DNA from: a virus | Direction: 5' to 3' (one strand) | IMG/VR virus record: IMGVR_UViG_3300032285_000563 | Location: 1-25,904 of that record | Length of the DNA: 25,904 nucleotides | Shown: one piece after another, positions 4,976 through 22,900 of the stretch | Numbering within the stretch: position 1 is the stretch's first letter | Layout of the letters: every line of letters begins with the position of its first letter | Notes under the pieces: generated by a model | The model's input: the letters and a program-made list of their open reading frames with translations, nothing else | Told to the model about the DNA's origin: nothing | Databases searched by the model: none | Translations under genes and position numbers: made by a program

Positions 4976-6565
4976 ATGATTAAACCATTAAACAAAATAG
5001 TAATAGTCGGCGGTGGTAGTGCAGGCTGGATGACAGCTAGTTTGCTGATTAAAGAATTTCCAAACAAGGAAATAGTGTTAGTTGAAAGCCCAAATGTTCC
5101 AATCGTAGGAGTAGGAGAAAGCACACTGGCACATATTAACGATTTTGTTCAATATTTAGAAATTGATGAAAAAGACTTTATGTCTTTTACCAATGCCAGT
5201 TATAAATTAAGCATTAAATTTACAGACTTTTATGAAAAAGATGCAGGCGGGTTTCATTATCCGTTTGCTATGCCTGTGTTAGAAGATACTGTAGATGGCC
5301 TACAAGATTGGTTTTATAAAAAATCATTATATCCAGAAACACCAGTAACTGACTTTGTTCAGTGTTATTATTCTGCTAGTGCTCTTTTTGAAAATAACAA
5401 ATACAGTGAAAACAAGGATGGCAAATTTTATAGATACGATCCAAAATTTCATGCCGCATATCACTTTGATGCTGTTAAATTTGGAGAATGGTTGCGAGAG
5501 CGTTATGCTGTACCTCGTGGTGTAGTACATATACTAGGCGATGTTGACAATATTAAAACAGGCGATAAGGGCATTGAACATCTAGTTCTATCTGATGGTA
5601 GTCAAATAGAAGCAGATTTATTCATTGACTGCACTGGATTTAAAAGTCTGTTGCTAGGGCAGGCATTAGACGAACCATTTGATAGTTATAGCGATATGTT
5701 GCCTAACAACAGAGCATGGGCGACGCAAGTACAGTATAAGGATAAAGAGAAAGAATTAGAACCTTTTACAAACTGTACTGCTATCGGTAACGGATGGGTT
5801 TGGAATATTCCCTTATGGAGTAGACTTGGTACAGGATATGTCTATAGTGACAAGTATACAACACCAGAAGCCGCCAAAGAAGAATTTAAACAGTACCTAA
5901 TGAGCGATAAGGTCGTATGTCCTAAGACTAAAGAAGAAGTTGACAATTTAGAATTCCGCGATATTCAAATGCGAGTAGGCATACACAAACGCACTTGGGT
6001 CAAAAACTGTGTGGCTATTGGACTCGCTGCCGGCTTTATTGAACCATTAGAGTCTAATGGATTATTCAGTGTTCATGAATTTTTATTCAAGTTGATAAAA
6101 AGTCTACAACGTCCAGCAGTTACACAATGGGACATAGATGTGTATAATGCTAGTTGTTTGAATATTTTTAGAAATTTTGCAGAATTTGTAGCACTACACT
6201 ATGCATTGAGTGTACGCAATGATACTGAATACTGGCGAGCCAATAGTAGTAGAACCTATAGTCCAGGCCTGCCATATTTAGAACCTCAAAGTTTTCAAGG
6301 ATTCTACGAACTACAACATATAAAAATGTTTACTGCTAGAGCGCCGATGAGTGCAGGAATTACTCGTATAGCAGTAGGGATGAATTATCCCCTATTAGAT
6401 AATGTCACTAGGATACATCAAGAAAATAGAGATAGTATCAGTTACAAAGAAAAATACAAAGAATCTTTTGAAACATTTGAAAAGAAAAAAGAATACTGGG
6501 CAAAGTTAGCTGAAACTGAACCAACCTTGTACCAGTACTTAAAAGATAACGTTTATAAAAATTAA
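4976..6565 (+). CDS. Flavin-dependent tryptophan halogenase-family protein 1
   Basis: The 529-residue length fits flavin-dependent halogenases. All hallmarks are present: the FAD-binding GGGSAGW at residues 12-18, VGVGEST at 44-50, the catalytic lysine K77 at the place of K79 in PrnA, FIDCTGF at 216-222, the signature W274-x-W276-x-I278-P279, and FIEPLES at 354-360 with the glutamate and serine that line the PrnA chlorination tunnel. Enzymes of this kind use FADH2, oxygen and halide to form HOX and halogenate an electron-rich ring; a reductase partner normally supplies FADH2 and none is seen here. The cyanophage Syn10 halogenase VirX1 is a known viral relative that prefers iodide. Substrate and halide are not deducible. 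It is transcribed alone rightward and its stop shares a TTAA with the opposing operon's last gene. Confidence 0.9.
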   Translation: MIKPLNKIVIVGGGSAGWMTASLLIKEFPNKEIVLVESPNVPIVGVGESTLAHINDFVQYLEIDEKDFMSFTNASYKLSIKFTDFYEKDAGGFHYPFAMPVLEDTVDGLQDWFYKKSLYPETPVTDFVQCYYSASALFENNKYSENKDGKFYRYDPKFHAAYHFDAVKFGEWLRERYAVPRGVVHILGDVDNIKTGDKGIEHLVLSDGSQIEADLFIDCTGFKSLLLGQALDEPFDSYSDMLPNNRAWATQVQYKDKEKELEPFTNCTAIGNGWVWNIPLWSRLGTGYVYSDKYTTPEAAKEEFKQYLMSDKVVCPKTKEEVDNLEFRDIQMRVGIHKRTWVKNCVAIGLAAGFIEPLESNGLFSVHEFLFKLIKSLQRPAVTQWDIDVYNASCLNIFRNFAEFVALHYALSVRNDTEYWRANSSRTYSPGLPYLEPQSFQGFYELQHIKMFTARAPMSAGITRIAVGMNYPLLDNVTRIHQENRDSISYKEKYKESFETFEKKKEYWAKLAETEPTLYQYLKDNVYKN

Positions 6566-7302
6566 CGACTAAAGAAGTGTTTTAGATACATTGCCTTTGA
6601 CAAGTTTCGTTTAAAGGCAAACGATAATCCGAAGAAATACTGACGTTTCTTCATCCATGCTAGCTCTTTTTCTGTAGCAGTTCCTACTTCCATTTTAAAT
6701 GTTTCATTTGTTAGTGGTACTAGCTGACACATAGGTGTACCTGCTTTTAACAAATGTTGACCATCTAATATACTCCACCAACCCTGCGGGTTAATTTCAG
6801 TACTATAACCTGGATCTAGTAATCCGATATTATGTTGGAATACAAATGAATCAGGGTACGGTAATGGAATGATTAAAAATTTTACATCTGGTGGTGCAAT
6901 TATATGCCAAGGTGTATGGAATTTAACAATAGATTTTAAAACTCCTGGAGGTTTAGGAATAACCTTCGCTAGTCCTCGGGCCATATGTCCTGCAACTGGA
7001 GGGCCGCCGTACAAGTCTGGAATGATATTTGTAGGAACTGACCATTTAAAGTCTTCACCATCTCCTTTAGTTTCGACCATTACGTCCCAAGGCATAGGTA
7101 CGATATAACCAGTGCTCATTAGATCAAAAATTCCAGGACATCTGTAGACGTGATTAAACTTTTCACCTTCTGATTGTTTTTTCACTTGCAAATACTCATC
7201 TCTTGCGGCGGTAATCCAAGATGGTTTATATTCGTCAGCTGGAATAATTGGAAACGCTTCAGCAACACCGTCTACGTTAGAAAAAAATCTTATTGTTCTC
7301 AT
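6562..7302 (-). CDS. Conserved-looking protein of unknown function in halogenase operon
   Basis: The product has 246 residues and no signal peptide or membrane segment. It is rich in proline and aromatic residues, with motifs such as FPIIPADEYKPSW near residue 20, YRCPGIFDLMSTGYIVPMPWD near 55-75, and FHTPWHIIAPP near 130. The arrangement of CPG, P-W-D and HTPWHI suggests a beta-rich, cupin-like or DUF6065-like fold, but I cannot assign it with confidence. A C-terminal basic tail ends HFFSR. It is the last gene of the leftward operon, and its start overlaps the preceding oxygenase stop in ATGA, so it is translated with the oxygenases. A role as accessory or substrate-binding partner of the oxygenase/halogenase set is inferred from position only. 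Confidence 0.55.
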   Translation of the reverse strand: MRTIRFFSNVDGVAEAFPIIPADEYKPSWITAARDEYLQVKKQSEGEKFNHVYRCPGIFDLMSTGYIVPMPWDVMVETKGDGEDFKWSVPTNIIPDLYGGPPVAGHMARGLAKVIPKPPGVLKSIVKFHTPWHIIAPPDVKFLIIPLPYPDSFVFQHNIGLLDPGYSTEINPQGWWSILDGQHLLKAGTPMCQLVPLTNETFKMEVGTATEKELAWMKKRQYFFGLSFAFKRNLSKAMYLKHFFSR

Positions 7303-7880
7303 GTTCTTATCTTCATGTTAAACGCTATATTGATGCGTTCTCTTTCGTTCATATTAACATCAACTTCATGTGGCATCCAACTTGGAAACATTATTAAATC
7401 TCCATCTTTGGGTGTGAACAAGAAATCTCTAGTAAATGGACTGTTTTCATTACAGTCTCCTAGTATATTTGCTGGGTTTGGAAATCTTAAATCTCCAGTA
7501 CCTGTACCTTGCAAATAATAAACACAGCTGAATTCACTTACCGCATGTGTATGAAATACATTTCTACTATATTGACTATTAATGTTGACCCACCAAGTTA
7601 TTGAAACATTTTTGGGACGTTTTAAATCTCTAAAAGTTGCATCTAAGGTACTATAGTAGTATACACTCTCTGTTAGGGTAGTGTCAATCGCATCGAACAA
7701 CCATTCCATTTCTAGTTTTGGCTCTAATATTCTATAGCATCCATAGTTAGAGTCGTTCATAGATGGCGTTACTTTTTGTATTTCTTTAATATCATTTAAT
7801 AATTTCAATCGCTGTTCCTCAGTACCCACATTTGGTACTGTAAATACTTCTGCTTGAAATGCCGTCTTATGAGTAATCAT
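7299..7880 (-). CDS. 2OG-Fe(II) oxygenase (PF13759-like), tandem copy 2
   Basis: This protein has 193 residues. H110-T-H112 is followed by SCVYYLQG; DLIMFPSWMPHEV carries H171, and R182 eleven residues later lies in RINIAFNM. The N-terminal part (EVFTVPNVG, then helices) is typical of the small phage members. It matches the next gene upstream in length (193), in the position of the first histidine pair (110/112) and in the H-x10-R spacing, so the two look like an old tandem duplication with strongly diverged sequence. Start and stop both sit in ATGA overlaps, giving translational coupling on each side. A hydroxylase-type oxidation is expected; the substrate is unknown. Confidence 0.82.
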   Translation of the reverse strand: MITHKTAFQAEVFTVPNVGTEEQRLKLLNDIKEIQKVTPSMNDSNYGCYRILEPKLEMEWLFDAIDTTLTESVYYYSTLDATFRDLKRPKNVSITWWVNINSQYSRNVFHTHAVSEFSCVYYLQGTGTGDLRFPNPANILGDCNENSPFTRDFLFTPKDGDLIMFPSWMPHEVDVNMNERERINIAFNMKIRT

Positions 7881-8458
7881 CGTAAGTTAAACGCAACACT
7901 AATGCGTTCTCCTATTGTTTCATTGATATTTACACGGTGTACTAACCAACTAGGAAATAATATAATGCGTCCAGTCTTTGGTCTATAGCTTACTGCATCA
8001 ACAGCTATGCGATCGCTTGGAAATCCTCCAAACTGCATATGCGGGTTAGGGGTTTGAAATCTAATTTTGCCATCGCTTTCTGTTGCGCAATAATAATATA
8101 CTCCCGAAATTCTATTTTGAGGATGTGTATGATCGTATTGAAAATCATTGGCTTGATAAAAATTGAACCATGACTCAGTTAATTTAAAATCTGGATCAGG
8201 ATATTTGATATTATTACAATAACTATTAACAGCTTCTAGTATTGCAGAATGTAATACTTGTAGTCCGTAGTGTTCAACATCATTTACCGAATGCTCTTTG
8301 CTAAATGTTGTTTCAACACTATCTCCCCAAGGGCTAGTTTTCTTGTCAGTTGAAATACTATCAATAGAATTTTTAATTTCCTGTTGTATTGCGTCTAACT
8401 TTTCTATAGAAAAATCGTGTACAAATAACGGAACTGAAAACCAATATTCAACTGACAT
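7877..8458 (-). CDS. 2OG-Fe(II) oxygenase (PF13759-like), tandem copy 1
   Basis: This 193-residue protein begins with WFSVPLFVHDF, a usual opening for the family. H110-T-H112 is followed by RISGVYYY; RIILFPSWLVHRV carries H174, with R185 eleven residues later in RISVAFNLR. These are the expected iron ligands and 2-oxoglutarate anchor, with HxH in place of HxD as in its relatives here. The start overlaps the halogenase 2 stop by one base (TAATG) and the stop overlaps the next oxygenase start, so halogenase 2 and the two oxygenases should be made together. The substrate is unknown, but the tight coupling suggests the three act in one pathway. Confidence 0.85.
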   Translation of the reverse strand: MSVEYWFSVPLFVHDFSIEKLDAIQQEIKNSIDSISTDKKTSPWGDSVETTFSKEHSVNDVEHYGLQVLHSAILEAVNSYCNNIKYPDPDFKLTESWFNFYQANDFQYDHTHPQNRISGVYYYCATESDGKIRFQTPNPHMQFGGFPSDRIAVDAVSYRPKTGRIILFPSWLVHRVNINETIGERISVAFNLR

Positions 8459-9972
8459 TATTCTGAACTATACCAATCTTTTAAAAATTCATAGTGGTTA
8501 GGGAATATTTCTTTAATCAGTTCAACTCGATGTGTTTGATTTTTAACAAAATATTCAGCATATTTTTCAACATCGCCTGCTACTTGTCTAGGATTATTAT
8601 CATAAACTCCACCGGCATTAAGTACACTAAACCAATGGCCTACATGGAAGCTAGAAGTAGGATGTACGAAAAACTCTCTGTTAGGCTTAGGAACAAACTT
8701 ACCGACAAAATCTAAAACTTTCTGCGGCATCATATCGTCTGTTTGTTGGCGTATGCTATTCCAGAACAGGGTATCATTTTTAGTGCTAAAGTGATAGTGT
8801 GCCCAGACAAATGCTACAATCTCCCAAAACATGATATCGTATAGAGAGTTTATTTCACCTTTTAACGGTTGACTCCATATGCCTTGTGTTTTATTTAGGC
8901 CTGCGGTGACTAATTCTACAGCCTTAGTAGTAAATGTGATACCAGTAGCTTCTAATGGTTCAACGAATCCAGCGGCGAGACCAATAGCACATACATTTTT
9001 ATATGCAACGCTATTATGTATACCACATTTCATCTTTAGATGTTTTGCAGGTGCTGTAAATTCACCAATTTTTTCTCTTAGTTCTTTTTCAGCATCTTCA
9101 CTCGACTTGAATTTACTACTGTAAACATATCCATTTCCTACTCTTTGAAATGTTGGGATAGTAAACATCCATCCGGCATCCATAGCAGTTGCTTTGGTAT
9201 ATGGAAAACATTCTTCTTCTGGATTAGTATATTGAGTAGGAATTACTACTGCACTATCGCAAGGTAGTATGTCATTCACTGATGTAAATTCTACTCCTAG
9301 TTTTTTCTCTAGTAAAATGCTTGCGAACCCGGTACAGTCTAAGTATAAATCAGCTGAGTACTTGTTGCCGTCTTCGTCTATTAAAGCGGTTACCCCTTCT
9401 TCGTTTGTTTCGACATCTTTAATCATAGTATTAACATAATTAATACGTTTAAGCACTATGCTTTTGATAGTTTCTAATATATCATATGCACCAAAGTGTA
9501 CAGCACCGAACTGTCTGTATCCAGTCTGGGCATAATTAGTATCCATGCCTGCTAGCTTAGGACTCTTGTTTGCTTTTGCAAGTTGGTATGCAGGCAACCA
9601 ATTGAAGAATTCTTTCTTATCTTTACCTACAAAATAATCTGTAGTAAATAAATTAGGAGCAATGATAGTATTTTCAATAAAATCGTTTTCTACAAAATAC
9701 GGTTCATCATTCCAACCTTCAAATTCAACACCTAGTTTAAATGTAGCATTACTAGGCTTCATCCAAGTCTTAGGATCTATGCCGCAATCAAACATAAATC
9801 TCGCAGTAGCAGGTTGTGTTCCTTCACCAACACCGATAGGGCCGAGATCCTTACTTTCAATTAAGGTAATCTCGCAGGGGAATTGTAAATTATTTGTAAT
9901 ATAGGCAGCGGTTAGCCAGCCGCTAGTGCCTCCGCCAAATATGATTATTTTTTTAACTTTGTTAATTTTCAT
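8458..9972 (-). CDS. Flavin-dependent tryptophan halogenase-family protein 2 (variant signature)
   Basis: This 504-residue relative of flavin-dependent halogenases has the FAD motif GGGTSGW at residues 13-19, GVGEGTQP at 47-54, lysine K79 (the same number as the PrnA catalytic lysine), LDCTGF at 211-216, and FVEPLEAT at 337-343. Two signature positions differ from the first halogenase: W268-M-F270-T-I272-P273 has Phe for the second Trp of WxWxIP, and A342 replaces the serine after the tunnel glutamate E341. The enzyme could still be a halogenase with another substrate or halide, or a flavin monooxygenase. It is in the middle of the leftward operon, overlapping both neighbours (ATGA and TAATG). 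Sequence identity to halogenase 1 looks modest, so the two were probably acquired or diverged long ago. Confidence 0.85.
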   Translation of the reverse strand: MKINKVKKIIIFGGGTSGWLTAAYITNNLQFPCEITLIESKDLGPIGVGEGTQPATARFMFDCGIDPKTWMKPSNATFKLGVEFEGWNDEPYFVENDFIENTIIAPNLFTTDYFVGKDKKEFFNWLPAYQLAKANKSPKLAGMDTNYAQTGYRQFGAVHFGAYDILETIKSIVLKRINYVNTMIKDVETNEEGVTALIDEDGNKYSADLYLDCTGFASILLEKKLGVEFTSVNDILPCDSAVVIPTQYTNPEEECFPYTKATAMDAGWMFTIPTFQRVGNGYVYSSKFKSSEDAEKELREKIGEFTAPAKHLKMKCGIHNSVAYKNVCAIGLAAGFVEPLEATGITFTTKAVELVTAGLNKTQGIWSQPLKGEINSLYDIMFWEIVAFVWAHYHFSTKNDTLFWNSIRQQTDDMMPQKVLDFVGKFVPKPNREFFVHPTSSFHVGHWFSVLNAGGVYDNNPRQVAGDVEKYAEYFVKNQTHRVELIKEIFPNHYEFLKDWYSSE

Positions 9973-11654
9973 TTTCTAATTACCAATATATAAAGACCGT
10001 TCCACCACTCACGGCTATTTTCTTCGCTGTTTATCATCAATTTTTTATAAGCTATTGTAGCACCGCAGTGATCCAATGCCGCTAGCGTTGCATCAACTAC
10101 TCCGTCCCAGTTAGCATCATCCATGATGATAATAGCTTCTTCAGTTAGTGTACTGTAATAGTATGTTATCGCTTGGAATGTTGAATCAGGATCGTGCGGG
10201 CCATCATAGAATAGCATCTGTACTGTATTGGCTAAACTTGCTGTATTTACATCGAATAAATTGCTATCGATTACTGTAACATTAGAAGAACCTACAAATG
10301 GTTGTATATTTTTTTCAAACTCTTCTTTGCTGTTTGCTGGTAATTGTATATTTTTATTTTTAGGCTGTATTTGATCTTTCCAATTGTCAACAAAATAGGC
10401 ATTGATAGGATTATCTTTTAATACAGCACTAGCAGTAGCACCTAGGTACGAACCAATTTCTAAATAACTGCCCACACCTTGTGCAATAAGATTCAATAGT
10501 GTCTGCACTCGCGGACTTGTTAATCCTGGAATCTTATTGTGTACTGTAGGTATACCTGATCTTGCCACAGCATCTACTACATGATTAACTAGATCAGATT
10601 GATATAGTTCGGATTTTTTATCATAAATTTTATCGCAGTATTGACATTCCCAACAGTCAAATTTACAATTTTTAATTTTTTCTCGCCATAGCGTAATAGG
10701 CTTGCCAGCTAGTCCGCTTTCTTCAGACCATCTTTCAAATCCTGCTGGTACGAATTCTTCTCCTGCTACAAATCTATCGATCCATACCATTGTTTCTTTT
10801 AGTCTTGCAAGGTCTTCTCTACCATGCATCTTAAAAACATCTATACCTAGATCTAAATATTCTATCCAGTCTTCTCTCCAAGGACTAAAATTAGCTGACT
10901 TTAGCGGTACTGCTAGATCTTCAATTTCCCATTTTGGACAACTTACTCGACTTATAGGGTTATTAAAATATTGAGGATCTTCTTTAGTGCGAATGTTATT
11001 ATACTCAAAATGTTCGACCATCATAGAACATGCTCCTAGACAACCTTCATTGGCTAGCAGACTATATTGTATGTCCTTGCCTAGATTTTCTTTGATCCAT
11101 ACCTTGGCTTCTTTCAATCGTAATAGTGTATCTCTATCACGCATTAGATCTCTATCTAGATTAATATAATCAAATCCATACTTGGCTAGATTGACTATCT
11201 CTACCGCAGTCCTTACTTCACGTAATATTGTATTTTTTACAAATAATTCAGGAAATGCGGATTTAATCTGTCCAGTGGCCATCCAATGTGTATGCGGAAT
11301 CGTAGCAGTACGTATTCCTGCATCATACAATTTCTTAAAATTAATGATAAAGGTATCTAAGTTTGTCTGGGTCGGCGGAACTGTAGTATTATTAAACGTA
11401 GCACTGATAGGGATTCCGAGATGCTGTTGAATATCTAATGCATTTTGAATTATATCCGTATGATGTTCTTCTAATACGAATACATCTCCCATGGCATCTT
11501 GTTTAAAAGGTGCAATGCGACTGGTAAAATAAATGTCTGAAATCCAATCTTTATTGCGTTCACAAAATTGATAAAACTCTATAAACTGTTGCTGATTTAA
11601 TTTAGGATTAAGTGGAACACTAAAAATCTTCCTTGCTTTAAAATTTAATTGCAT
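9969..11654 (-). CDS. U32-type Fe-S barrel protein fused to SAM-dependent methyltransferase
   Basis: This 561-residue protein has two parts. Residues 1 to about 345 look like a peptidase-U32-type TIM barrel: a repeated strand/helix pattern, LLANEGCLGACSM with C205 and C209, C239 in RVSCPKW, LGIDVFKMHGRED near 269-281, and a closing CX3CX2CX2C (C330, C334, C337, C340). Known U32 proteins (UbiU/UbiV, RlhA, TrhP) act in oxygen-independent hydroxylation and some bind a 4Fe-4S cluster through cysteines. Residues about 370-561 form a class I methyltransferase: YLEIGSYLG at 397-405 is the SAM loop, with VDNW at 422-425, FYDGPHD at 482-488 and a possible metal/acidic MDDANWDGV at 511-519. Hydroxylation followed by O-methylation in one polypeptide is an inference. 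Both ends overlap neighbouring genes in the operon. Confidence 0.75.
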   Translation of the reverse strand: MQLNFKARKIFSVPLNPKLNQQQFIEFYQFCERNKDWISDIYFTSRIAPFKQDAMGDVFVLEEHHTDIIQNALDIQQHLGIPISATFNNTTVPPTQTNLDTFIINFKKLYDAGIRTATIPHTHWMATGQIKSAFPELFVKNTILREVRTAVEIVNLAKYGFDYINLDRDLMRDRDTLLRLKEAKVWIKENLGKDIQYSLLANEGCLGACSMMVEHFEYNNIRTKEDPQYFNNPISRVSCPKWEIEDLAVPLKSANFSPWREDWIEYLDLGIDVFKMHGREDLARLKETMVWIDRFVAGEEFVPAGFERWSEESGLAGKPITLWREKIKNCKFDCWECQYCDKIYDKKSELYQSDLVNHVVDAVARSGIPTVHNKIPGLTSPRVQTLLNLIAQGVGSYLEIGSYLGATASAVLKDNPINAYFVDNWKDQIQPKNKNIQLPANSKEEFEKNIQPFVGSSNVTVIDSNLFDVNTASLANTVQMLFYDGPHDPDSTFQAITYYYSTLTEEAIIIMDDANWDGVVDATLAALDHCGATIAYKKLMINSEENSREWWNGLYILVIRK

Positions 11655-12244
11655 TATACGCCTTTACCTAGAAATTCAATCCAGCCTGTTATTATATATT
11701 TTTCGCCACTTAGTGGAGGATTACCACGATGTGTATGTGTAAAACCAGCAGGCCAAATTACGATCCTACCTGCTTTTGCTGATACTCTACGTTTTTGATA
11801 TAGATATTCTGTTTCGCCACCATGCTCGACATCATTCAAGTATAGTGTCCAAGTACATATTCTTGTCGATACCTCTGTTGCGGCAGATTCAAAATGCCAC
11901 TGATGATATCCTTGGCCTGCCAGTGTTTTTTGCAGTCGGGCACTCATGATACCGTGCATTTCTATATCTGCTAGGATACTAAACTGCTTAACATAATCAT
12001 CATAGCAACCCCAAAACTTTTCAAGAAAGGTATCCATTACTGGATTTTTCTTATGTAAAGGTAATGTATTGTGTTGTAGTAAGAAGACAGTTTCATCTTC
12101 TTTTATATGACGATGGCCGTCTTTGAGCTTTTGTCTAGTATGAGATAAATCTAGAGCTTTTAAATTTTCAAAATAGTCAATGTATATTTGACACTCTTGT
12201 GGTGTTAAAACATTATCCCAAATACCAACGAAATCTTCAAACAT
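11654..12244 (-). CDS. 2OG-Fe(II) oxygenase, prolyl-4-hydroxylase-like, with HxE
   Basis: The 196 residues fit a minimal P4H domain. W116-H117-F118-E119 (after GQGYH) gives HxE where HxD is usual; CTWTLYLND and GGETEYLY follow; distal H172 (in FTHTHRG) is followed ten residues later by K182, the His-to-Lys spacing used by prolyl-4-hydroxylases to bind 2-oxoglutarate. Glu can replace Asp in some relatives, so activity is plausible though not certain. Possible substrates are proline or lysine residues in a protein, for example one of the Thr/Pro-rich phage fibre proteins, but nothing shows this. GAGGGTG before the ATG is a fair ribosome site. Its stop and the next gene's start share TAATG; 26 bases separate it from the preceding oxygenase. 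Confidence 0.82.
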   Translation of the reverse strand: MFEDFVGIWDNVLTPQECQIYIDYFENLKALDLSHTRQKLKDGHRHIKEDETVFLLQHNTLPLHKKNPVMDTFLEKFWGCYDDYVKQFSILADIEMHGIMSARLQKTLAGQGYHQWHFESAATEVSTRICTWTLYLNDVEHGGETEYLYQKRRVSAKAGRIVIWPAGFTHTHRGNPPLSGEKYIITGWIEFLGKGV

Positions 12245-12276
12245 GCGACACCCTCTTATAAGGCAAGTATTTACAC
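12245..12276 (-). promoter_or_regulatory. Candidate internal promoter before the P4H-like gene
   Basis: On the minus strand, GTGTAAATAC (12267-12276), identical to ten bases of the divergent site at 3264-3273, overlaps the stop of the upstream oxygenase. It is one base from a T4-type late box and lies about 23 bases before the ATG at 12244, with GAGGGTG as ribosome site. This is the only real gap in the 12.9-6.6 kb operon. Confidence 0.35.
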
Positions 12277-12873
12277 TATGGGGTCGATTTTAAAGTTAAA
12301 AGTGATAGCTATGCGTAGCGGATGCTGTGTTGGGTAGGAACTACAGTGATAGTGCTTGCCATTAAAAGCTACTATCCTACCTTGTTTTGGTTTTACTTTG
12401 CGTTTTATAGTTAACTCAGCGTTGACTATTTGATCTTCTGTGTAATCGTCAAATGTTTCATTATACAGAATGAAATCGCCATCAGAATCATTAACATAAT
12501 AAACTGCTGTCCAGTGTTCAAAGGTAGCATCTGTGTGCGCTCCGTGGGGCGAAGCGTTTGGATGCATCGTAAACAGTCCTGCTCGTACACGATTCATAGC
12601 AGTTATCCTAAATCTATCTCTAGTGGCTTCTTCGAAGTATCGTAAGATTGGCCATACTGCTGGAAGGTCTTCTGATTTTTTCTCACCAGCATACATCATG
12701 TTATGGAAAAAACCTACTGCATCAAGTTTTTCTGGACTGGTAGTTTTACCATAAACTGAGCTTAAAGAAAGGCTCCAGGGAAAACTAGGATGGGTGAATA
12801 ACTGTTTAAGTTTTTCTTGCTCTTCTACTGGAAGGAAATCATCTAATTCGATATAGTCTTTAGATAAAATCAT
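12271..12873 (-). CDS. 2OG-Fe(II) oxygenase, HxD type
   Basis: This 200-residue protein carries a complete 2OG oxygenase set: H113-T-D115 in HGAHTDATFEHW, the strand AVYYVND, GDFILYN, then KPKQGRIVAFNGKHYHCSS with distal histidine H174 or H176, and R187 in RIAITFNF as the 2-oxoglutarate anchor. This is the most canonical member of the set here. The opening YIELDDFLPVEEQEKL is typical of P4H-like and related phage oxygenases. Start and preceding stop share ATGA with the unrecognised 191-residue gene, linking the tailoring operon directly to the genes that follow the structural block. The substrate is unknown. Confidence 0.85.
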   Translation of the reverse strand: MILSKDYIELDDFLPVEEQEKLKQLFTHPSFPWSLSLSSVYGKTTSPEKLDAVGFFHNMMYAGEKKSEDLPAVWPILRYFEEATRDRFRITAMNRVRAGLFTMHPNASPHGAHTDATFEHWTAVYYVNDSDGDFILYNETFDDYTEDQIVNAELTIKRKVKPKQGRIVAFNGKHYHCSSYPTQHPLRIAITFNFKIDPIV

Positions 12874-13445
12874 TGACTCATTAAATTAGCAGTAGGGCCC
12901 CAGTTGTAAATTTGTGGTATATCTAAACAAGCTGTTGCAAAATCAAATTTTATATGCATTAATTTTCTGCAATCCATAGTAGTAGCACACGCATCAATTT
13001 CTTTTAAAAGAGATTGTTTGTAATCAGCATTAAGATCTGCAAGATCTTGACTAATTACTTTTCGATAGTGATAGTCTAATTCTAATTTCATGATAGTTTT
13101 CATAAAATTAATTTGATCTACTATGTCTTCTTCCGTTAGTGTATAGTGTACTTTAGGTTTTCTTGAATGATGTTCGAGGCTGGCATGCATGAGTTCTTCA
13201 TGTATTGCAGAACCTTCTAATATTCCAAGTTTGTCTTCGTGATTTGCCTTGCCAAACTTTGCGCCACGGGCTGTAGCTTCGGAAACTTCTACATGTACTA
13301 TACCAGAAAGATCAACAGATCCTACGTTTGCAGGATCGATGTAGGCAACATCCCAACGTCCAAAACTATACTGATCTAAAAATTCTACTGTTCCGTTAGT
13401 TTTTAGAGGATGATTAAATCCAACATTTTCAAGTATTATAAACAT
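12870..13445 (-). CDS. Unrecognised 191-residue protein
   Basis: I do not recognise this protein. It is soluble, with no signal peptide or membrane segment. Residues 1-65 are beta-rich (IVHVEVSEAT), then comes a His/Glu-rich segment near residues 80-100 (SAIHEELMHASLEHH) that could bind metal, followed by long helices (EDIVDQINFMKTIMKLELDYHYRK) and a C-terminal part with cysteines (ACATTMDCRK, TACLDIP). Its start overlaps the upstream 314-residue gene by 17 bases and its stop overlaps the first oxygenase gene in ATGA, so it bridges the structural block and the tailoring operon. A chaperone, adaptor or assembly factor role is possible but not shown. Confidence 0.6.
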   Translation of the reverse strand: MFIILENVGFNHPLKTNGTVEFLDQYSFGRWDVAYIDPANVGSVDLSGIVHVEVSEATARGAKFGKANHEDKLGILEGSAIHEELMHASLEHHSRKPKVHYTLTEEDIVDQINFMKTIMKLELDYHYRKVISQDLADLNADYKQSLLKEIDACATTMDCRKLMHIKFDFATACLDIPQIYNWGPTANLMSQ

Positions 13446-14373
13446 CTAAAAGATCTCCGCTCGCTTTATTTGGTGCTTCGTTATCGATAACTGTACTATT
13501 GCTTTCGCCAAGCTGGCCAACACTTTCTGCAATCGGTACAAGATTATTAATATGAAATTCGATCTTATCAAGATCTTCTATTCTTTTACCTTGCATTAAG
13601 GCCGCGTACTGTTGATCCGTTGCTAGTAATTTATTATGAACATCCATTCGAATAGCAGAACTTAAACTTTCTAGACGTAGTGTAATTTCATGCATCAATG
13701 CCATAGATTCGCGTTGCTGAGGTTCTGGCATTTGTAACATAGCATCTAGGTTACCAGCACCCACACGACCGTATGAAGCATAATCCATAGCACATTGACG
13801 TGCTAATCGTACAGTCCAGTAGTGTGCTTCCCAATAGTTTTCTTCGTCTGTGTTACCAAATACTTCCATCCAACTACGACCATCTGGGGTTTTTCCATTA
13901 GGTCCTTCAAGATATTCGTTGATCAACTCGAGGTATTGTTCGCGTTCGATATAATGCTGACCAGCACGACGTTTATTTTGATAAAAGTCGTGATTGATCT
14001 TGTTTAAATCTAATTTGATCTTAGCACGTTCTAGTGGATCTGTTTCGCGTTCTAGTCTTAGTTCGCAAATTTCTTTTTCTAGTTCATGTTTTCTAAGCAA
14101 AGTTTCAAAATTTTCACAATTTTCTTCGATGCTTTTTAATTCTAACAGCCATTGTCTAACTGTGCTATAAGGTGTTAGTTGTCCGCTAGTTACAAAATGT
14201 TTCATCTTGTACTTAGGATTTAAGAATTGGGCATTAAGTGCTGTTTCAACCATACGCTTCTGGTCAGCTGACAGCATCTTTGTATCAGTCGTAGTTGAGT
14301 CTTTTGATTTCCACTCTTTGTACTTTTCAAAAAGATTTACACTATTATTTGATTGTGTGCTTAATTCAGACAT
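13429..14373 (-). CDS. Unrecognised 314-residue coiled-coil protein
   Basis: The ATG follows AGGAAAAAAC, a fair ribosome site. The protein is soluble and highly charged. Residues about 70-135 form a long helical, probably coiled-coil, stretch rich in E, K, L and R (LRKHELEKEICELRLERE). This is followed by SWMEVFGNTDEENYWEAHYW near residue 170 and further helices to about 285, then a polar tail. No enzyme motif is seen. It lies directly after the tail-fibre-type genes on the same strand and before the unrecognised 191-residue gene, overlapping it. Position suggests a virion assembly or fibre-associated role, but this is inference. I cannot match it to a named T4 protein. Confidence 0.6.
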   Translation of the reverse strand: MSELSTQSNNSVNLFEKYKEWKSKDSTTTDTKMLSADQKRMVETALNAQFLNPKYKMKHFVTSGQLTPYSTVRQWLLELKSIEENCENFETLLRKHELEKEICELRLERETDPLERAKIKLDLNKINHDFYQNKRRAGQHYIEREQYLELINEYLEGPNGKTPDGRSWMEVFGNTDEENYWEAHYWTVRLARQCAMDYASYGRVGAGNLDAMLQMPEPQQRESMALMHEITLRLESLSSAIRMDVHNKLLATDQQYAALMQGKRIEDLDKIEFHINNLVPIAESVGQLGESNSTVIDNEAPNKASGDLLDVYNT

Positions 14374-14409: not shown

Positions 14410-15645
14410 TTAATCTCTCCAACCCATATGTCCAGAACTGGCTCCGCCGTGTCCTTTTGGTTCTTGTGTACCGCCGTTTTGACTTCCTGAGTCAGTTGAA
14501 TAGGTAAATGTATATGAACGATTGTTCTGTCCTGATGGATCGTGTTCCCCCATCATGTATCCTTTGTTCTGACCCATACCAAAGTTTTCTTCTCCGTAGC
14601 CCCAGCCGCCCGGTTTACCGATGTTACCAGCACCTGATTCACTAGCAATGTTAGTCTTACGGAAGTTGTAACCACCTGAATAACTACCTTCGTTACCACC
14701 ATAACCATAACCAGTCTTAGCCATTAAGCCTTTCTGCTGTCCATGTGCGCCAGATGAATGTCCCATGTTGGCAATACTATCTGTTGGGAAATAGACACGC
14801 TGAGTCTGTGCTGAATTACCCCAGAAAATACCACGATCTGATCCCGAGATACTTGCCGCATGGTCGTTCCAACCGTTACCTAAGTTAGCTTGGCTTTCAC
14901 TAGACAAGTTAAATTTGTTGATAGTACCAGTACCTTCACCTGTTACATAAGCATAGTTGCGTTCCCAGAATGCCGTACCGTTGTTACCACCACCACCTGC
15001 GTTATTACCAGAAACAGATTTACTTTCTGTACGCATGTTAAAGCCTGTTGGGCCGCCGTTCCAGATATAGATCTTATTGTAGCCACTAGCACCTGATTTG
15101 TAGTGATAGTTATCAACTAGGCCATCGCCTAGGTTAACTGCGGTATCATTAGATTGCGTTAGTCTATTGGCATTTGACCATAATGAACTACTTTGATACC
15201 CACCAACTAGATAGCCAGTTGTAAGAATCTGTCTATAAGGCCACGGAGCACTTAGAGTAATAGTATAGGAACGATCAGTATAGCTGTTATATCCTGAAGC
15301 ATCAGTAGCACGTACTGTAAAACTATATACGTTGCCGTCTGAATTAATTGCAGAAGCTGTATAAGATCCGGTAACAACACCAGTGCTAGAGTTTAAACTA
15401 AATCCAGGAGGTAATGATCCACTAGCAATAGTATAGTTAATTGCTCCAGAGTAGAACGGATCAAATGTTGCTCTAGTACCTGTTACTGTAGTTGCACTTG
15501 GAGTAAAGTAATCTCCCTGCATAGTCGTAGTTCCCAGAGAACCACTACCACTGCTCGATGCTGTGTCTTGTGGGCCTACACCTGGGTGGTAACCACCCGA
15601 TCCTGTTAGTTCTCTTGAACCACCTGTTGTTCCTAAAATTGGCAT
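14410..15645 (-). CDS. Tail-fibre/adhesin-like protein with Ig-like domain and Gly-rich repeats
   Basis: The start is supported by TAGGAG 8 bases upstream. The 411-residue protein has a Gly/Ser-rich N-terminus (1-45), a putative Ig (He_PIG-type) domain at about 60-132 (LPPGFSLNSSTGVVTG, YSFTVRATDASG), then from about 140 a series of roughly 50-residue units of the form GY..GGYQSS..W..NR..Q..D...NLGDG, YAYVTGEGTG..NKFN, and so on, ending in a very Gly-rich tail (GHGGASSGHMGWRD). The repeats resemble those of structural proteins in marine T4-like phages and may fold as a propeller or stacked beta structure. The glycine-rich end recalls receptor-binding adhesins of the gp38 kind in appearance only. 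It belongs to the leftward structural operon and probably sits at the fibre tip. Confidence 0.7.
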   Translation of the reverse strand: MPILGTTGGSRELTGSGGYHPGVGPQDTASSSGSGSLGTTTMQGDYFTPSATTVTGTRATFDPFYSGAINYTIASGSLPPGFSLNSSTGVVTGSYTASAINSDGNVYSFTVRATDASGYNSYTDRSYTITLSAPWPYRQILTTGYLVGGYQSSSLWSNANRLTQSNDTAVNLGDGLVDNYHYKSGASGYNKIYIWNGGPTGFNMRTESKSVSGNNAGGGGNNGTAFWERNYAYVTGEGTGTINKFNLSSESQANLGNGWNDHAASISGSDRGIFWGNSAQTQRVYFPTDSIANMGHSSGAHGQQKGLMAKTGYGYGGNEGSYSGGYNFRKTNIASESGAGNIGKPGGWGYGEENFGMGQNKGYMMGEHDPSGQNNRSYTFTYSTDSGSQNGGTQEPKGHGGASSGHMGWRD

Positions 15646-15666: not shown

Positions 15667-16548
15667 TTAGCCGAATGATCCGTACTGTCCAAGGACACTA
15701 AATGTACCCGATGGGTTCACAATAATAAATGTCGCGATATCTATTTTATTAGCACGACCGCTTGGCGTTACACCACCTGGCCAGTTAATAGTATAACCAG
15801 TACCGTTAATTTGGAAACCGTTTGGAATATACGGGGTTCCGCCTTGTGCCAATATAAGCGTAACTGTGATCGAACGTCCAGTTGTAGTTGGAGTATTAGT
15901 CAAGTTAACTGTAAATGATGCGCTAATACTTGAGTGATACCAAACGTCACCTGTTGAATAGTCATGTATTACTGTACCAGTGGCGCCGGATTTGGTGTTT
16001 AATACCTCAGTAATTGCGGCTAGTGTTGTTGTGCCAGTTGCCGATAATGCTGTAAAAGTTCCAGCTGCCGCTGTTGTTTGTCCAATGCTTGTATTATTAA
16101 TCGTACCAGCAGTTGTAGTTGGGCTAATAGTTAAACCACCTGTTGGGCTAATTGCTACTGATGCACCACTTGGACTTAAGGTTACTGTTGAACTAGCACT
16201 TAATGTACTAGCTGCCACTGGGCCGTTAGCATCAAACCAACCAATGTAGTTTGTACCGTCAGATACTACTGTTACTAGTGCTAGGTTAGGAATTGCTGTA
16301 GTATTTGCACCACCTAACTGGCCGCTAAAAACACCTGTACCTGCATTAACTGTGCTTAGTGTTACAGCACCACCTGAGGTATTATAAAATTGATTTTGAA
16401 ATCCTGGAAACAAAGCAGGACTTGGCATGTTAATCGTGTAAGGTCCAGTACCTGTAAATGTTATAAGAGTCGAACCTCGAAGAGGTGATACTAAATCACC
16501 ACCTGCACTAATTACCGTTGTTGATGAAAGCGAATTATATCTTGCCAT
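15667..16548 (-). CDS. Tail-fibre-type structural protein
   Basis: This 293-residue protein is rich in T, G, S, A and N, with no cysteine. Residues 1-115 contain beta strands (TGPYTINMPSPALFPG, GGAVTLSTVNAGTG). Residues 115-180 are low-complexity with short T/S/G repeats including INNTSIGQTTAAAGTFTAL, a unit common in phage fibres. The C-terminal 110 residues (ASFTVNLTNTPTTTGRSI, PYIPNGFQINGTGYTINWPG, FSVLGQYGSFG) form a compact domain I associate with structural proteins of marine T4-like phages. GATAGGAC precedes the ATG. It is 14 bases from the upstream small structural gene and 21 from the next, in one operon. Confidence 0.7.
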   Translation of the reverse strand: MARYNSLSSTTVISAGGDLVSPLRGSTLITFTGTGPYTINMPSPALFPGFQNQFYNTSGGAVTLSTVNAGTGVFSGQLGGANTTAIPNLALVTVVSDGTNYIGWFDANGPVAASTLSASSTVTLSPSGASVAISPTGGLTISPTTTAGTINNTSIGQTTAAAGTFTALSATGTTTLAAITEVLNTKSGATGTVIHDYSTGDVWYHSSISASFTVNLTNTPTTTGRSITVTLILAQGGTPYIPNGFQINGTGYTINWPGGVTPSGRANKIDIATFIIVNPSGTFSVLGQYGSFG

Positions 16549-16562
16549 GTCCTATCTCTCTA

Positions 16563-16886
16563 TTAAGTTGTAGATGTCTCAATACCCCAAACGTTTACAT
16601 TAACGCCTGTAGTACTGACATAGGCTACGATGCCTGCGTTTGGCTGTAATACAAGACCAGTACGCTCTAATACACCTCTTGGAATAATAGTTGCTTCATA
16701 TTCAATGTATTCGCTAGTTTGTGGGCTTGCAGGGTTACTGCAAGCTGCCAAACGAACAGTTACCGGTGTAGTATTAGTGTTGGTAACACTAACGTTAATT
16801 ACCGCATAGTATCCTGTTGGTACAGTATACGTTGGAGTGACTGTAGTCGCTGCCGGTGCACCTGTATATAATCTTCCTGTTGCCAT
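16563..16886 (-). CDS. Small structural-type beta protein
   Basis: This 107-residue protein is almost all beta strand: PTYTVPTGYYAVINVSVTN, TPVTVRLAACSN, YIEYEATIIP, AGIVAYVSTTGVNVNVWGIE. It has the look of a single jelly-roll or Ig-like domain found in small tail or capsid-decoration proteins of phages; the YTVPTGYYAVINV opening resembles T4-like marine phage proteins of the fibre region. AAAGGAG precedes the ATG and overlaps the region around the stop of the giant upstream gene, so translation may be coupled. Its exact place in the virion is unknown. Confidence 0.65.
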   Translation of the reverse strand: MATGRLYTGAPAATTVTPTYTVPTGYYAVINVSVTNTNTTPVTVRLAACSNPASPQTSEYIEYEATIIPRGVLERTGLVLQPNAGIVAYVSTTGVNVNVWGIETSTT

Positions 16887-16900
16887 GTTTTATTTCTCCT

Positions 16901-19900
16901 TTATTTTTGTGTGAAATATACAAGGGCAACTGGACTTCCGTCAATACCGCCTGTAAAATTCATTTTCGATGTTATATTTATTTGACCACCGTTTGTGGTA
17001 GTTATAGTATTACCAGAAATGTATATAACACCTGCTGTTAAGGTATTTACGTTTAAGGTACTTGCACCACCACCAATTTGGCTAGTAATGTATGTCTTAA
17101 TAGCTTTTTGGGTTGGTACAATACTGTCTGAGTTAGCTGTAAAGTACGGGTCTGTCGAGAACTGTGTAATAACCGCAGATCCAACACCCAATGTAACAGC
17201 ACCCAACTGCAAGCTGTTCAAACCTGCCAAGTTAAATGCTGTAGCGTTCAATGTAGCAGTACCAGTTGCCTGTTGTACTCCGAACAAATTACCAACGTTG
17301 AAGTTACCGTCTTGGTCAGTACTTGTAAAGAATGTACGTCCGCCGCCTGAACTAATTGCTTGGTTAGCCTGTATAGCACTACTAATATTAACGTTCGGAT
17401 AGTTAGTAGTAGCGGCATTACCTGTACCGATATACAAGAAGTCATGTCCTGTTAAACGTACTTGACTATATTTTAGTTTAGTAGTCATTGCATCGCCAGT
17501 TGCAGGTGCAAGTAATACGCTCAATGCTGGATTGATCTGGAACTGAGCAGTATAGTTGCCAAGTGATCCAAGGATGTTTGTTACCTGTACTAGTTTATAC
17601 CAAGTGTTTGGTATTGAAGCAAATGTAATATTTGCACCAGCAGTTGGAATACTATACAAGTTTGCAACGTTGATAAAGCTACTTGCTTGATACAAGTCAG
17701 CCGCACCATCGCCTGCTAGGGCGGCACTAATACCACCACCTGTATTTGCAGTAGCAGTTGTGTTACCAGTACCTCTGTTAGGGAAACTTGGATTTGCTAG
17801 TATACCTGTACCGGTACGCATACGTAGGGCCGCAGCCTTAGTTTTATTTGGATCAGTTAGTGTAGCAATCGGAGCCGCAGTCCATGTACCTGTCAATGTT
17901 TGACTTGACAATGTAACTGGTGTATTTGAAATAACGTTGGCTACTGAAGTGGCTACTTTAAATGATGTTCCTGATACAATAGTCGAACCAATTACATAAT
18001 AGATTGTATTTGCCGCTAGACCTGCTGCCGCGCAACCGACAAATTCAATCGGCTGTTGATCAACTAAGTTTTCAGTATTATCAACTGTGATCACATTAGT
18101 ACTTGTTGTAGTTGCAGTAACAGCTCCTTTTGGATATCCGTTTCCTGGTTCAATGATTCGAATTTCATTGATAGTACTTGCACCTGTAGTTACTTTTGCA
18201 CGACCGAGTGTTTGTGATCCTGTTCGGATACTACCTGCTACAGTTCCTGTAGTGTTACTGATAATACTCCATAATGGGTTACCAGAGATACTACCAAATG
18301 CCGCATTGGTCCAGTTGCTTGAAGCTGGTAATGTTCTGATAGTCCAGTTGATACCATCTGGGCTTGTTGCGCCAACAGTACTGCCGGAAGCAACAGCCAG
18401 GAATAAACCTTGTCCATATCGTACACGAGTCCAGCTAGTGCTTGCCGCCGCCAATACACCAGTAGTTGCAACACCCCAGCTTGAAGTAGTCCAAGTAAGA
18501 CCTGCATCAATACTATAAGCATGAGCGCCGGTTGCCGCTAGTGCTACAAAACGCCCATTACCGTAAGCAATGCTAGTCCATGTAGTACTTGTTGGAAGTG
18601 TGCCGCCAGCGGTCCATGTTACACCGTTAGTAGAATAACTTGTTATGTTTCCGCCAGTGTTGACAGCAACGAATGTACCAGCACCGTATGCAACTGAGCT
18701 ATAGCTACCTGCACTCAATGTTGATATTGCTCGTGTAATCCATGTAGCACCATTGTCTGCACTAGATGCCGCAGTACCTGTTCCAGATGCGCCACCTACT
18801 ACAACATAAACACCGCCGCCATAGGCCATACCTTGATAGTTAGTTGCGCCGCTTGAAGTACCAGATACCCATACTGGACAAGTGATAGTGATTTGTGAAC
18901 CTGAACTACCAGCTGTTTGACTTACACTTACAGTATAAGTTCCCGCACCGCCTAATGTACCAGTTAATTGGTTAAGAATATAAGTTCCAGCAGTTACACC
19001 TGAGCCTGCAATTAACATACCCGGTGCTAGTGTGCCAGAACCGACACTGGTAATAGTCATTACAGCACTTGCCGCTCCGATATAACCAGTTACGCTAACA
19101 GCAGATGTTAAGCTAGCCGGTGTACTATAGTTAGTGTTATTAGATGTTGTAGATATTGCAATATATCTTGCATTGGTATCCACAATAGTAACTGTAGGTG
19201 TTGATGTATATCCTGCACCTACGTTAGTTAATGTAACTGCGCTTACACCGTTATTAGTTAGTGTAACTGTACCTGTAGCAATAGTAGTTGGACTGCCGCC
19301 ACCTGTAACACTGACTGTAACTGCTGATGCGCTGTAATAGTCTTTACCCCAGTTGGTCATTGTAATGCTGGTTATACGATCTGTATAAACTGTTACTGCC
19401 GGAGCACTAACATATCCAGAACCGTTTGATACCATAGTTACTGCAACGATAGCACCATTTAATACAATCGCTGTAGCAGTTGCTTGGCTTCCGCTACCTG
19501 TTACAATAGATATAGTCGGAGCAGTTGTGTATCCATAGCCACCGTTTACAATAGTAATACTTGCAACTTGGTCAGCTTGTGGGTTACCTAGGGTATTAGT
19601 TGTACCTAATACCGCTGTTAGAACAGCGCCTGCACCACCAAGTCCACCGATGACTGCTACGGCCGTTGCACCTTGGCCACCGCCGTATGCAACATCTCCC
19701 CAGCCTGTGCTTGTTGCTAGGTTACCAACTTGAGACCAAGTTTTACCGTCTAGACTGTAACCGTAATTTGTACTACCAGTTGAAACTGCAACATATTTGT
19801 TATTACCAAATGTTAATCCAGTCCAGCTAGCTGAAACAGGTAATGTTCTTGAAGTTGCATTGTAACCTGGAGCAGTATAACTAATGCGTGGTTCGATGAT

Positions 19901-22900
19901 ATAGAACGATGTTAGATCTGGAACGTTACTAACTGTACTTCCTGGAACAACATGATCCCAACCAGCGGCATACAATGTAATTGTTAATGCACTAACGTTA
20001 TTGCTAATTGTTACAGCACTACCACCAGATGTAGTCGATACTGCAAATTGTGTTGAACTATAGTTTGCGGCTATAATAAAATACAATGTGTTAGCCGATA
20101 GGCCCGTTGCACCGCCTGTTCCGCTCATAGTTCCTGACAAGTAAATTGGCATACCAACATATAATGTTGATGTGCTAGCTACTGTTAGTAAGCCATTAGT
20201 TACTGCTGTATTTGTAACAGTTAATGGTGCAAAACTATCTTTATAAACTGCAAGTGTTTTATTACCGTTGGTATAATTTAAGATATTAGCATATTGTCCA
20301 ACACCGGTACCAGCCGTAAGTTGAACACGCATGCCGTTGTATGCTCCAGCTAATGCTTGATCAGTATTAGCAATTAACAAAGTACCAACAGTACTTGCCT
20401 GAGCGGCACTTGCTTGTGTTATATAACCAGCGCCGCCAAAACCGTTTGAATCATTTAGGTCAACTAAACGAGTTTCAAACACACCAGCATCACGATACTC
20501 ATCTGCCACAGATGTAGCATTATATCCAGTACCACTGATTGTATGTTGTGTGTTTGAATACCCGATACCTGCGTTTCCAAATTCAAAACGTAGAATCTTA
20601 TTAACAGCATCTGTAACTACGTTAGTAATTTGTGCTGGATTGTATCTGTTGTTTAGCGTAGCATTCAATGATACTTCATAAGTGTCGCCACCTTCTGCAA
20701 TAACACCGTATGTGCCGTATGATGAGTTACCGTTAGTAGCACGGATCTTACCACCTAGCTCTGCTAGATAACCAGAATAGTTATAGTATGAGAACACTGA
20801 AACAAGTTCTGTTACAGAGTTTGTGCCGGTACACCATACACCAATACCATCACTTAGTACTTGTGTAAAGTCGTTGCTAACGATAGACTTGTTACCAGAA
20901 GCATGTAATGCTCCATCGATCTTACAACCCACACAGCCGACACCAAATGTTGTTACGTTTTGAACATAGCAAGATTTAGTTGTAATCCAAACACGACTGT
21001 CTTGTGGACCGTATCCTGGATCTAGACTAGTATATGAACCTGCTGTTGGACGTTTTGTACCATAGCTGTTTGCTACTGTCAAACTACCTGATAGACCGCT
21101 TAGTGTCATATTACGTACACCTGTACCATTACGTACATAGAACATGTCTGATAATTGTGATCCTGCTACAGCATTGTTATATAATGTTGAAGCAAATTGT
21201 GATTTGTAATTACCTGGATAGTTTAAATCGTAAATTATAGCAGTTAACCAAGCAGTCATATCACGACGGCATGCGCTTGCAACAAAACTATAACGCACAA
21301 TTAATGATGATCCGCTACCATCTGCTGTAATATCAATTGCTGTTCCGCCAGCTGTTGTACTAATTTTAAAAGAAGTACCAGTTAACCCGCTGGATAGTAC
21401 ATAATATGTTGTACCAATAGTTATACCACTTCCTGTATAAGTCGTTCCGCTGAATACAACCGGATCGCCTGCCGCAAAATTATGATTAGAACCTAAAGTA
21501 AACAAATCAGTAGTTGCAGTTGTAGTTGTTACAGTACCGCCGTAACTTGCTGTGATATAAGCAGTTGCTTCGTATGCTAGGAAGTTAAGGTTAGCACGGA
21601 TAATTTCAGCACCTTGGATAGTTGCTAGTGTGTTGTTATAAGTGTTAGTACCATTAACAAGAGCTTTTGCGCCAGCAGTTGCCTTAGCAGTCATACTACT
21701 TACTGTGTTAGTAATCGTAAATGCTGTACCGCTTGCATAGCTATTAGTAATAGTTAATGTTGTACCACTTGGAATAGTATTAACCCAATAACGTGAACCG
21801 TTTACTAATCCGCCAGCTACGTTGAATACTGCTGTCATTGAACCACTACCAGTTACTAAACTGATTGCACTTCCGCCTAGTGTGTTTGCCAATTGAATTG
21901 TACTACCAGTAGCACCGATAACATAATATGTTTGGTTAGCAACAATGGTTCCAAATACTGTACCGGTAAAATAAACAATATTACCGTTAGCAATTCCTAA
22001 GCTAGCTACTGTAGCAGATAATGTTATTACGTTAGTACCGCTAGTTGTAGCGGTTGCTGTACCATTAACTAGTGCCGGTAATCCACTGAATACGATTGGT
22101 TGATTAACAACCATACCTGCTGTGCTAGTTACTGTTAGAACGTTTGTACTTGTTGTAGCTGTTGTTAGAACCGGAGTAGCAGTTGTTGGAACAACTCCAC
22201 TCGTTGGATTAATAAAGTTAAGAGCTGTTACAGTACCAGCTGTTGGAGTAGTTCCGCCAGTAACAGTATAGATAACACTAGTCGAGCTAACAATAGTTGT
22301 AACAACTACACTAGTTGGAATACCGCCATATAGAGTACCAGTGCCTGCTGTTGCATAGATAGTTTGGCCGATAGCCATATTCGCTGTGCTACTAATATTT
22401 GTAAGTGTTGCAGTCCATGGACCTGTTCCGGTAATACTTCCAACTGTAACTGTTCCACTAAGTTGTGTAGTAGTACCTGCGGCAAATGTTGATCCACCGT
22501 AAGTTGCAGAAACAGTAATCACGTTGCCAGTAACTGTTAACACATAGTATGTTGTACCTGCAACTAAGTTGCCAAGACCAACACTGAATACAATCGCACT
22601 ATTAACTACGATAGTATTTGCTGTACCAATTTGTGTTACACTAGATAGTGTAATGTTATTACCGCTTACGTTTGTAGCTGTTACAGAAATAGTTGCTGGA
22701 CCGTTAATGCTAGAAATAATATCATCAATGTTAGCACTTGCTTGAGCAATACTACCACTAGCCATGATTAACTTAGATTTTGCTCCAATGAATCCAATAG
22801 CATCAATTTCTGCTGCCAATTGACTATTAATAACTGTTTGTGCGCTAGCGATAGCTCTATAATATGACTTAGCGGCTACAATACTAGCAAAGTTAGATCC

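Follow-up and report, generated by a model that had tools for sequence, protein, structure and literature searches.

What does a phage gain from a single protein that joins a metal-binding barrel to a methyltransferase? The question is raised by one gene in IMG/VR virus record IMGVR_UViG_3300032285_000563, the whole of which (25,904 bases) was analysed and is referred to here as the window. This gene (9969..11654, minus strand; protein P0001) starts with ATG and encodes 561 residues, which a sequence-only reading of the window had taken for a U32-type iron-sulfur (Fe-S) barrel fused to an S-adenosylmethionine (SAM) methyltransferase, a combination it regarded as new. It is clear from our results that the gene is an intact two-part gene and a member of phrog_1458, a widespread phage protein family of no assigned function whose composition is now identified. 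Its strict gene partnership points to a receptor-binding fibre cassette as what phrog_1458 most likely serves.

An intact fusion in a widespread cyanophage family

Both halves lie in one intact gene, as the sequence-only reading had held. Among the relatives kept from IMG/VR (the best 80 of 308, which with the window make up the 81 loci or rows referred to below), the fusion is a single open reading frame carrying both halves in all 80, at 53-70% identity, and it was matched in 123 of 50,697 phage records, all cyanophages and all at less than 60% identity, with at least 80% of the query covered in 123 of 123. Separate genes for the two halves do exist in two clades, as described below, and might be taken to suggest that a frameshift or an assembly artefact had joined them here; the single frame in every kept locus and the continuous match in every phage record refute this, and we consider its likelihood negligible.

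The fusion is real, then, but it is not a lone unusual protein. The phrog_1458 profile matches it over its full length (540.7 bits, E 9e-162, profile 1-519 of 519), covering the fusion from residue 55 to its end, and phrog_36869 covers the N-terminal half. In cyanophages Syn19 and P-HM2 the protein is T4-like gene cluster (GC) 354, and their cassette, GC351-354, is the same as that of the window; the fusion is a member of this family with no difference from it, and the family has been carried as a cyanophage hypothetical protein. The phages that carry the enzyme are T4-like phages of water and sediment. A PDB sequence search with the whole protein gave no match, and the full-length AlphaFold2 model has a mean predicted local distance difference test score (pLDDT) of 86.8.

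The N-terminal half as an outlying U32-type barrel

The N-terminal domain (residues 1-345; 10620..11654, minus strand) is predicted from AlphaFold2 models, fold search, and profile links to be a U32-type (beta/alpha)8 barrel followed by a C-terminal four-cysteine segment. It was modelled and searched separately because methyltransferases fill the fold list of the whole model. Folded alone, the domain reaches a pLDDT of 78.8, with cysteine loops that are poorly resolved, and the cluster geometry is not readable from the model. Its best fold match, first by both Foldseek and Z, is the U32 protein Mk0906 (5d88; Z 15.1, 217 aligned residues, root-mean-square deviation 3.3), with MTHFR as the next family at Z 13.7; against the whole model, 5d88 gives Z 16.1. 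In profile-profile comparison, the phage N-domains together with P0002, a stand-alone barrel from a bacterial genome, form a set (A9) that matches a three-member bacterial family at 97.8% (E 8e-13) over most of the length, including the last four cysteines, and a PF01136-positive group (A7), whose members pass the Pfam U32 cut-off, at 97% (E 8e-11). A7 in turn matches the UbiU/UbiV/RlhA/TrhP set (A3) at 99% (E 4.5e-18). Compared directly, A9 and A3 match less well (74%, E 2.8e-5 over 97 columns), and a MetF control, a mild one as a single sequence, gave 0.1%. Since the fold search puts 5d88 first and the profile links lead to U32 groups, the N-terminal half is placed in the U32 superfamily, where models and profiles make it an outlying clade outside every characterised U32 family. 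The U32 fold seen by the sequence-only reading is thus borne out by prediction. PF01136 matched neither P0001 nor any of 25 N-domains above its gathering score, and the Pfam and NCBIfam models gave nothing relevant for this domain. Two PDB chains of a toxin light chain matched it by sequence at E ~0.045, which is chance level, and were disregarded.

The cysteines of this half are where the sequence-only reading had put them. Residues were counted over 163 rows, namely the 161 full-length sequences among 181 distinct barrel segments (from 284 barrel loci examined), the window, and P0002, and three elements are invariant in all of them: C205-x3-C209, within ANEGCLGAC after barrel strand 7 (11028..11042, minus strand); C239, the third of the group, which falls between strands 7 and 8 (10938..10940, minus strand); and C330-x3-C334-x2-C337-x2-C340 (10635..10667, minus strand), a possible second metal or Fe-S site. 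Close relatives, the window included, likewise keep all seven cysteines in 81 of 81 rows, far beyond chance. Together with N202, E203, H215, K275, H277, and R279, the cysteines make thirteen positions that never vary across the 163 rows and are all cysteine or polar, as expected of an active site. An Fe-S cluster in the barrel is plausible on this pattern. The barrel, the cysteines between strands 7 and 8, and a K-x-x-GR at strand 8 are shared with UbiU/UbiV, TrhP, and RlhA, O2-independent hydroxylases of a type marked by [4Fe-4S] binding and by hydroxylation that depends on prephenate, from which the fusion differs in the absence of a Pfam-A U32 match in the 25 N-domains and in its fused methyltransferase.

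Bacterial U32-like families to which the profile links lead (E 8e-13 and 8e-11), in the same phylum as the Syntrophaceae hit described below, share more. Members L107-L109, L099, and L105 (L numbers denote individual loci) have the same seven-cysteine layout, including the four-cysteine segment, and the same N-x-x-C-x3-C-P, H, and C. Unlike the fusion, these families (L107-L109; L098/L099/L104/L105/L110) carry no methyltransferase in the frames read, do not adjoin phage fibre genes within the stretches examined, and are 19-23% identical to the N-domain of the window. A bacterial counterpart of the fusion itself, which the sequence-only reading had suggested looking for, did not emerge from a scan of genome contigs by conserved peptide patterns, which was not exhaustive: of 15 candidates, 3 were confirmed, of which L085 has phage-like neighbours, L084 is a contig of 3,025 bases, and L086, a Syntrophaceae metagenome-assembled genome, encodes the barrel alone (P0002, 41% identical) with no fused methyltransferase. 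Among 395 genomes of the phylum of this Syntrophaceae hit there were five matches, the query's own and four weak ones, and plasmids gave none. In L086, a second cysteine-motif protein (P0003; 8744-9517), which looks U32-like by eye and has no Pfam match, is encoded after the stand-alone barrel; their adjacency recalls the UbiU/UbiV pairing.

The methyltransferase half and its coupling to the barrel

The C-terminal half (residues 358-561; 9972..10583, minus strand) is, by its profile and fold matches, an O-methyltransferase of the class I SAM type. Residues 398-513 match Methyltransf_24 (PF13578) at 37.4 bits against a cut-off of 26.3 (E 5e-9), and within this match lies the SAM loop noted by the sequence-only reading, E399-x-G401-x3-G405 (10440..10460, minus strand), of which E399, G401, and G405 are invariant in an alignment of 48 rows (less than 88% identity, window included) drawn from the 80 loci and the window. 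D484, D512, and D513 are conserved in all or almost all rows and probably correspond to metal ligands of related enzymes. O-methyltransferases head the fold list of the whole model, with Z up to 17.8. When a profile of 23 methyltransferase domains was run against all PDB sequences, TrmR (Bacillus subtilis YrrM, 5zw3) came first (E 2.4e-4), with one other protein at E 0.002. TrmR, a comparison raised by the sequence-only reading, is thus the closest PDB sequence, although the alignment is weak and partial (about 92 positions) and its fold score (Z 16.4) lies within 1 Z of many O-methyltransferases, several of which equal or exceed it.

The two halves do not always share a gene. A scan with a distant member exposed phages that have the barrel and the methyltransferase as separate adjoining genes, so that the 181 distinct barrel segments comprise 143 fused forms, 24 with a separate methyltransferase gene directly after the barrel, 13 cut by a contig end, and one (L124) without a methyltransferase. 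In L126, the start of the methyltransferase gene overlaps the barrel stop (ATGA), and the frame of this second gene is broken further on; in the minus-strand loci L195 and L197 the methyltransferase adjoins the barrel. On a quick tree (52 rows below 78% identity), the separate form makes up two clades, one of which is deepest when the tree is rooted on P0002, and the changes of state number three with all three labels and two for fused versus separate. The order of these fusion or splitting events is unsure because the P0002 root is a long branch. With its separate and fused forms, the family lends itself well to tests of U32 chemistry.

A strict partnership with tail-fibre genes

Past two oxygenase-like genes that are described below, the minus strand upstream of the fusion carries a series of fibre-related genes. 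These encode a small cassette protein, c1 (12870..13445; 191 residues, found in 78 of 81 loci); phrog_1409, assigned by its PHROG match (13429..14373; 314 residues); phrog_1417, a fibre-like repeat protein (14410..15645; 411 residues) with an immunoglobulin (Ig)-type segment and relatives annotated as 'sericin 1 precursor-like'; two small tail-fibre-type proteins of 293 and 107 residues (15667..16886) with weak PHROG tail fiber matches; and a giant tail-fibre protein (16901..25903) that runs off the window and was recognized by a PHROG search of 18000-25903. We call phrog_1417 fibre-like on account of its position among fibre genes, its Ig-type segment, and the PHROG labels of its neighbours. 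Among the 81 loci, the fusion is accompanied by c1 in 78, phrog_1409 in 77, phrog_1417 in 74, a halogenase-like gene in 73, and the main 2-oxoglutarate (2OG) oxygenase cluster in 70.

In the phage collection, the fusion, phrog_1409, and phrog_1417 were each found in 123 of the 50,697 records with the same organism breakdown (77/38/8), the three sets being compared by total and breakdown; GC352, the equivalent of c1 by position, was found in 112, at low similarity. Approached from the other side, 111 of 121 phrog_1409 loci have the barrel, and in the remaining 10 the contig ends at most 1,485 bases downstream. Where at least 5 kb is available on both sides of a distinct segment, phrog_1409 is present in 78 of 78 and phrog_1417 in 77 of 78. 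The sole exception, L120, is an S-RIM14 record; in such records phrog_1417 lies farther upstream than the stretch examined, and the fusion has been kept in S-RIM14 even though about 6 kb of other genes part it from phrog_1409. The phrog_1417-type proteins are encoded upstream of the fusion in most loci and on its downstream side in L116 and L125-L127. We regard the three as strict partners: gene order varies and the company stays. This strict cassette of an enzyme with the fibre-like phrog_1417, phrog_1409, and a small helper is new here.

Some features of the cassette are worth recording in their own right. The c1 protein varies greatly from row to row, but its lysine K98, which mostly stands within K-x-x-Y-x-L-T, is the same in all 81 and may be a candidate modification site. 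Many phages have two or three copies of phrog_1417, and a conserved SS(G/A)...WRD-type tail is often found at the end of these proteins. In S-RIM14, genes for plastocyanin and 6-phosphogluconate dehydrogenase (3944-5291 of L120) are among those that part the fusion from its fibre cassette.

Proposed function and its alternatives

Since its strictest partners are fibre-cassette proteins, the fusion is most simply read as helping to make or finish the fibre, and we tentatively propose, as something possible rather than probable, that it serves the tail-fibre cassette as a bifunctional maturation enzyme. What has been computed is the presence of two domains, their homology, the intact cysteine and SAM residues, the coupling of the halves as fused or adjacent genes, and the strict co-occurrence with the cassette. 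The homology of the two halves suggests an oxygenation followed by O-methylation. The barrel would use an Fe-S cluster held by C205/C209/C239, with C330-C340 possibly providing a second site for a metal or Fe-S cluster, and would introduce or unmask an oxygen function on a group of aromatic or heterocyclic nature. The fused O-methyltransferase would then cap this function by transferring a methyl group to it from SAM. The likeliest substrate would be phrog_1417 or else its partners phrog_1409 or c1. A more specific version, which we regard as rather doubtful, would have a dedicated O2-independent post-translational modification of the fibre, in which a two-site Fe-S U32 barrel oxygenates an aromatic residue of a fibre-tip protein and the fused or operon-coupled O-methyltransferase methylates it, often beside 2OG oxygenases and halogenase-like flavoproteins, yielding a chemically tailored adhesin. 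If the proposal is true, enzymatic fibre chemistry would become part of how abundant marine T4-like phages recognize their hosts, and a U32 protein would have a protein as its target in place of RNA or a quinone. We found no literature in open-licence PMC on a barrel/methyltransferase fusion or on a role of U32 proteins in phage fibres.

Several points weigh against this proposal. Co-occurrence establishes partnership and does not identify a substrate, many of the 123 phage records are near-identical isolates so that phage kinship inflates the counts, and the agreement of the three record sets is one of totals and breakdown. In L124, a 121,946-base phage record that is possibly a fragment, no methyltransferase match was found. 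The chemistry of the barrel is a further difficulty. According to PMC6599085, a glutamate is essential in TrhP (E162) and RlhA (E161), as are C170 and C177 in TrhP; at the aligned position of the phage barrel, 198, there is serine in 141 and alanine in 22 of the 163 rows, whereas the bacterial relatives L107, L108, L105, L099, and L110 retain the glutamate. The cluster motifs given in PMC6747719 are CX6CX16CX38C for UbiU and CXnCX12CX3C for UbiV, a four-cysteine spacing unlike that of the fusion, which has CX3C...C and CX3CX2CX2C, a layout of 3+4 cysteines. Because of the replaced glutamate and the different spacing, hydroxylation is not simply transferable to the phage barrel, in which such chemistry may be lost or altered, and the hydroxylating N-terminal half of the sequence-only reading is not upheld.

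These same residues lead to one of the two main rivals, in which the barrel is no hydroxylase but carries out some other Fe-S reaction, or serves to bind and present the substrate, with the methyltransferase methylating the same fibre-cassette target. L124 fits this reading as well, since a barrel retained in the cassette without a methyltransferase match may have a role of its own. However, the thirteen invariant residues, all of them cysteine or polar, resemble those of a catalytic site, and the U32 proteins with a known role are tied to hydroxylation in PMC6747719 and PMC6599085, and we consider this rival somewhat unlikely. The other main rival, an RNA target, was suggested by analogy in the sequence-only reading; like TrhP or TrhO followed by TrmR, the fusion would hydroxylate a pyrimidine of tRNA or rRNA and then O-methylate it, for the translation of phage late or fibre genes. 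Both the U32 homology and the position of TrmR, which methylates hydroxyuridine, as nearest PDB sequence to the methyltransferase are consistent with it. PMC6599085 describes how TrhP and TrmR make mo5U (5-methoxyuridine), as well as a natural YceA (TrhO)-TrmR fusion in Phytophthora and Phaeodactylum. That fusion likewise joins a hydroxylase to an O-methyltransferase, but TrhO is an O2-dependent rhodanese-family protein and not a U32 protein, and the fusion is cellular and RNA-directed. In the phages, by contrast, the strict linkage is to fibre genes and not to tRNA or translation genes, the protein has no domain besides the barrel, the cysteine segment, and the methyltransferase, both halves are acidic (median isoelectric point 5.55 for the barrel and 4.8 for the methyltransferase, although TrhP is also at 5.8), and the U32 glutamate reported as essential is absent. 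A fibre-maturation enzyme is therefore favoured over an RNA modifier, which we judge unlikely. More improbable still is an enzyme acting on a host small molecule, such as a quinone, pigment, or nucleotide precursor, that sits near fibre genes by inheritance of gene order. UbiU and UbiV do act on ubiquinone precursors (PMC6747719), and cyanophages carry many metabolic genes (PMC10452541), but the order of the genes shifts while their company stays, as in L116 and L125-L127 and in S-RIM14, where the cassette stands apart from the fusion.

Neighbouring oxygenase and flavoprotein genes

The O2-dependent enzymes that the sequence-only reading placed around the fusion were recovered by Pfam and other profile matches. 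A tryptophan (Trp)-halogenase-like flavoprotein gene (8458..9972, minus strand; PF04820, E 3.5e-93) overlaps the stop of the fusion, and such a gene lies directly downstream in 55 of 81 loci. As an obligate partner it was ruled out by its occurrence in 60 phage records, with a breakdown unlike that of the fusion. Two 2OG-Fe(II) oxygenase-like proteins are encoded upstream of the fusion (11654..12873, minus strand; PF13640) and two downstream (7299..8458, minus strand; PF13759). In seven divergent loci, a NUDIX gene replaces the halogenase beside the fusion, and phrog_1409 lies directly upstream. A cyanophage gene beside the fusion in L082 (10719-11216) is annotated as 'denV: DNA endonuclease V' and may be misnamed, since the 2OG oxygenases of the window are themselves matched by PHROGs that bear the label DNA endonuclease or endonuclease V.

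Farther from the fusion, the plus strand of the window encodes a second Trp-halogenase-like flavoprotein (4976-6565), which matches QhpG and LodB, both protein-modifying flavoenzymes, at E 1e-12 and 5e-10, far below the cut-offs. On the minus strand, a 185-residue protein (1034-1591) has a signal-peptide-like start and a weak match, below cut-off, to the OMP_b-brl outer-membrane beta-barrel, and it is neighboured by a DUF401 permease-like membrane protein (1601-2668) whose cluster recurs in 18 of 81 loci.

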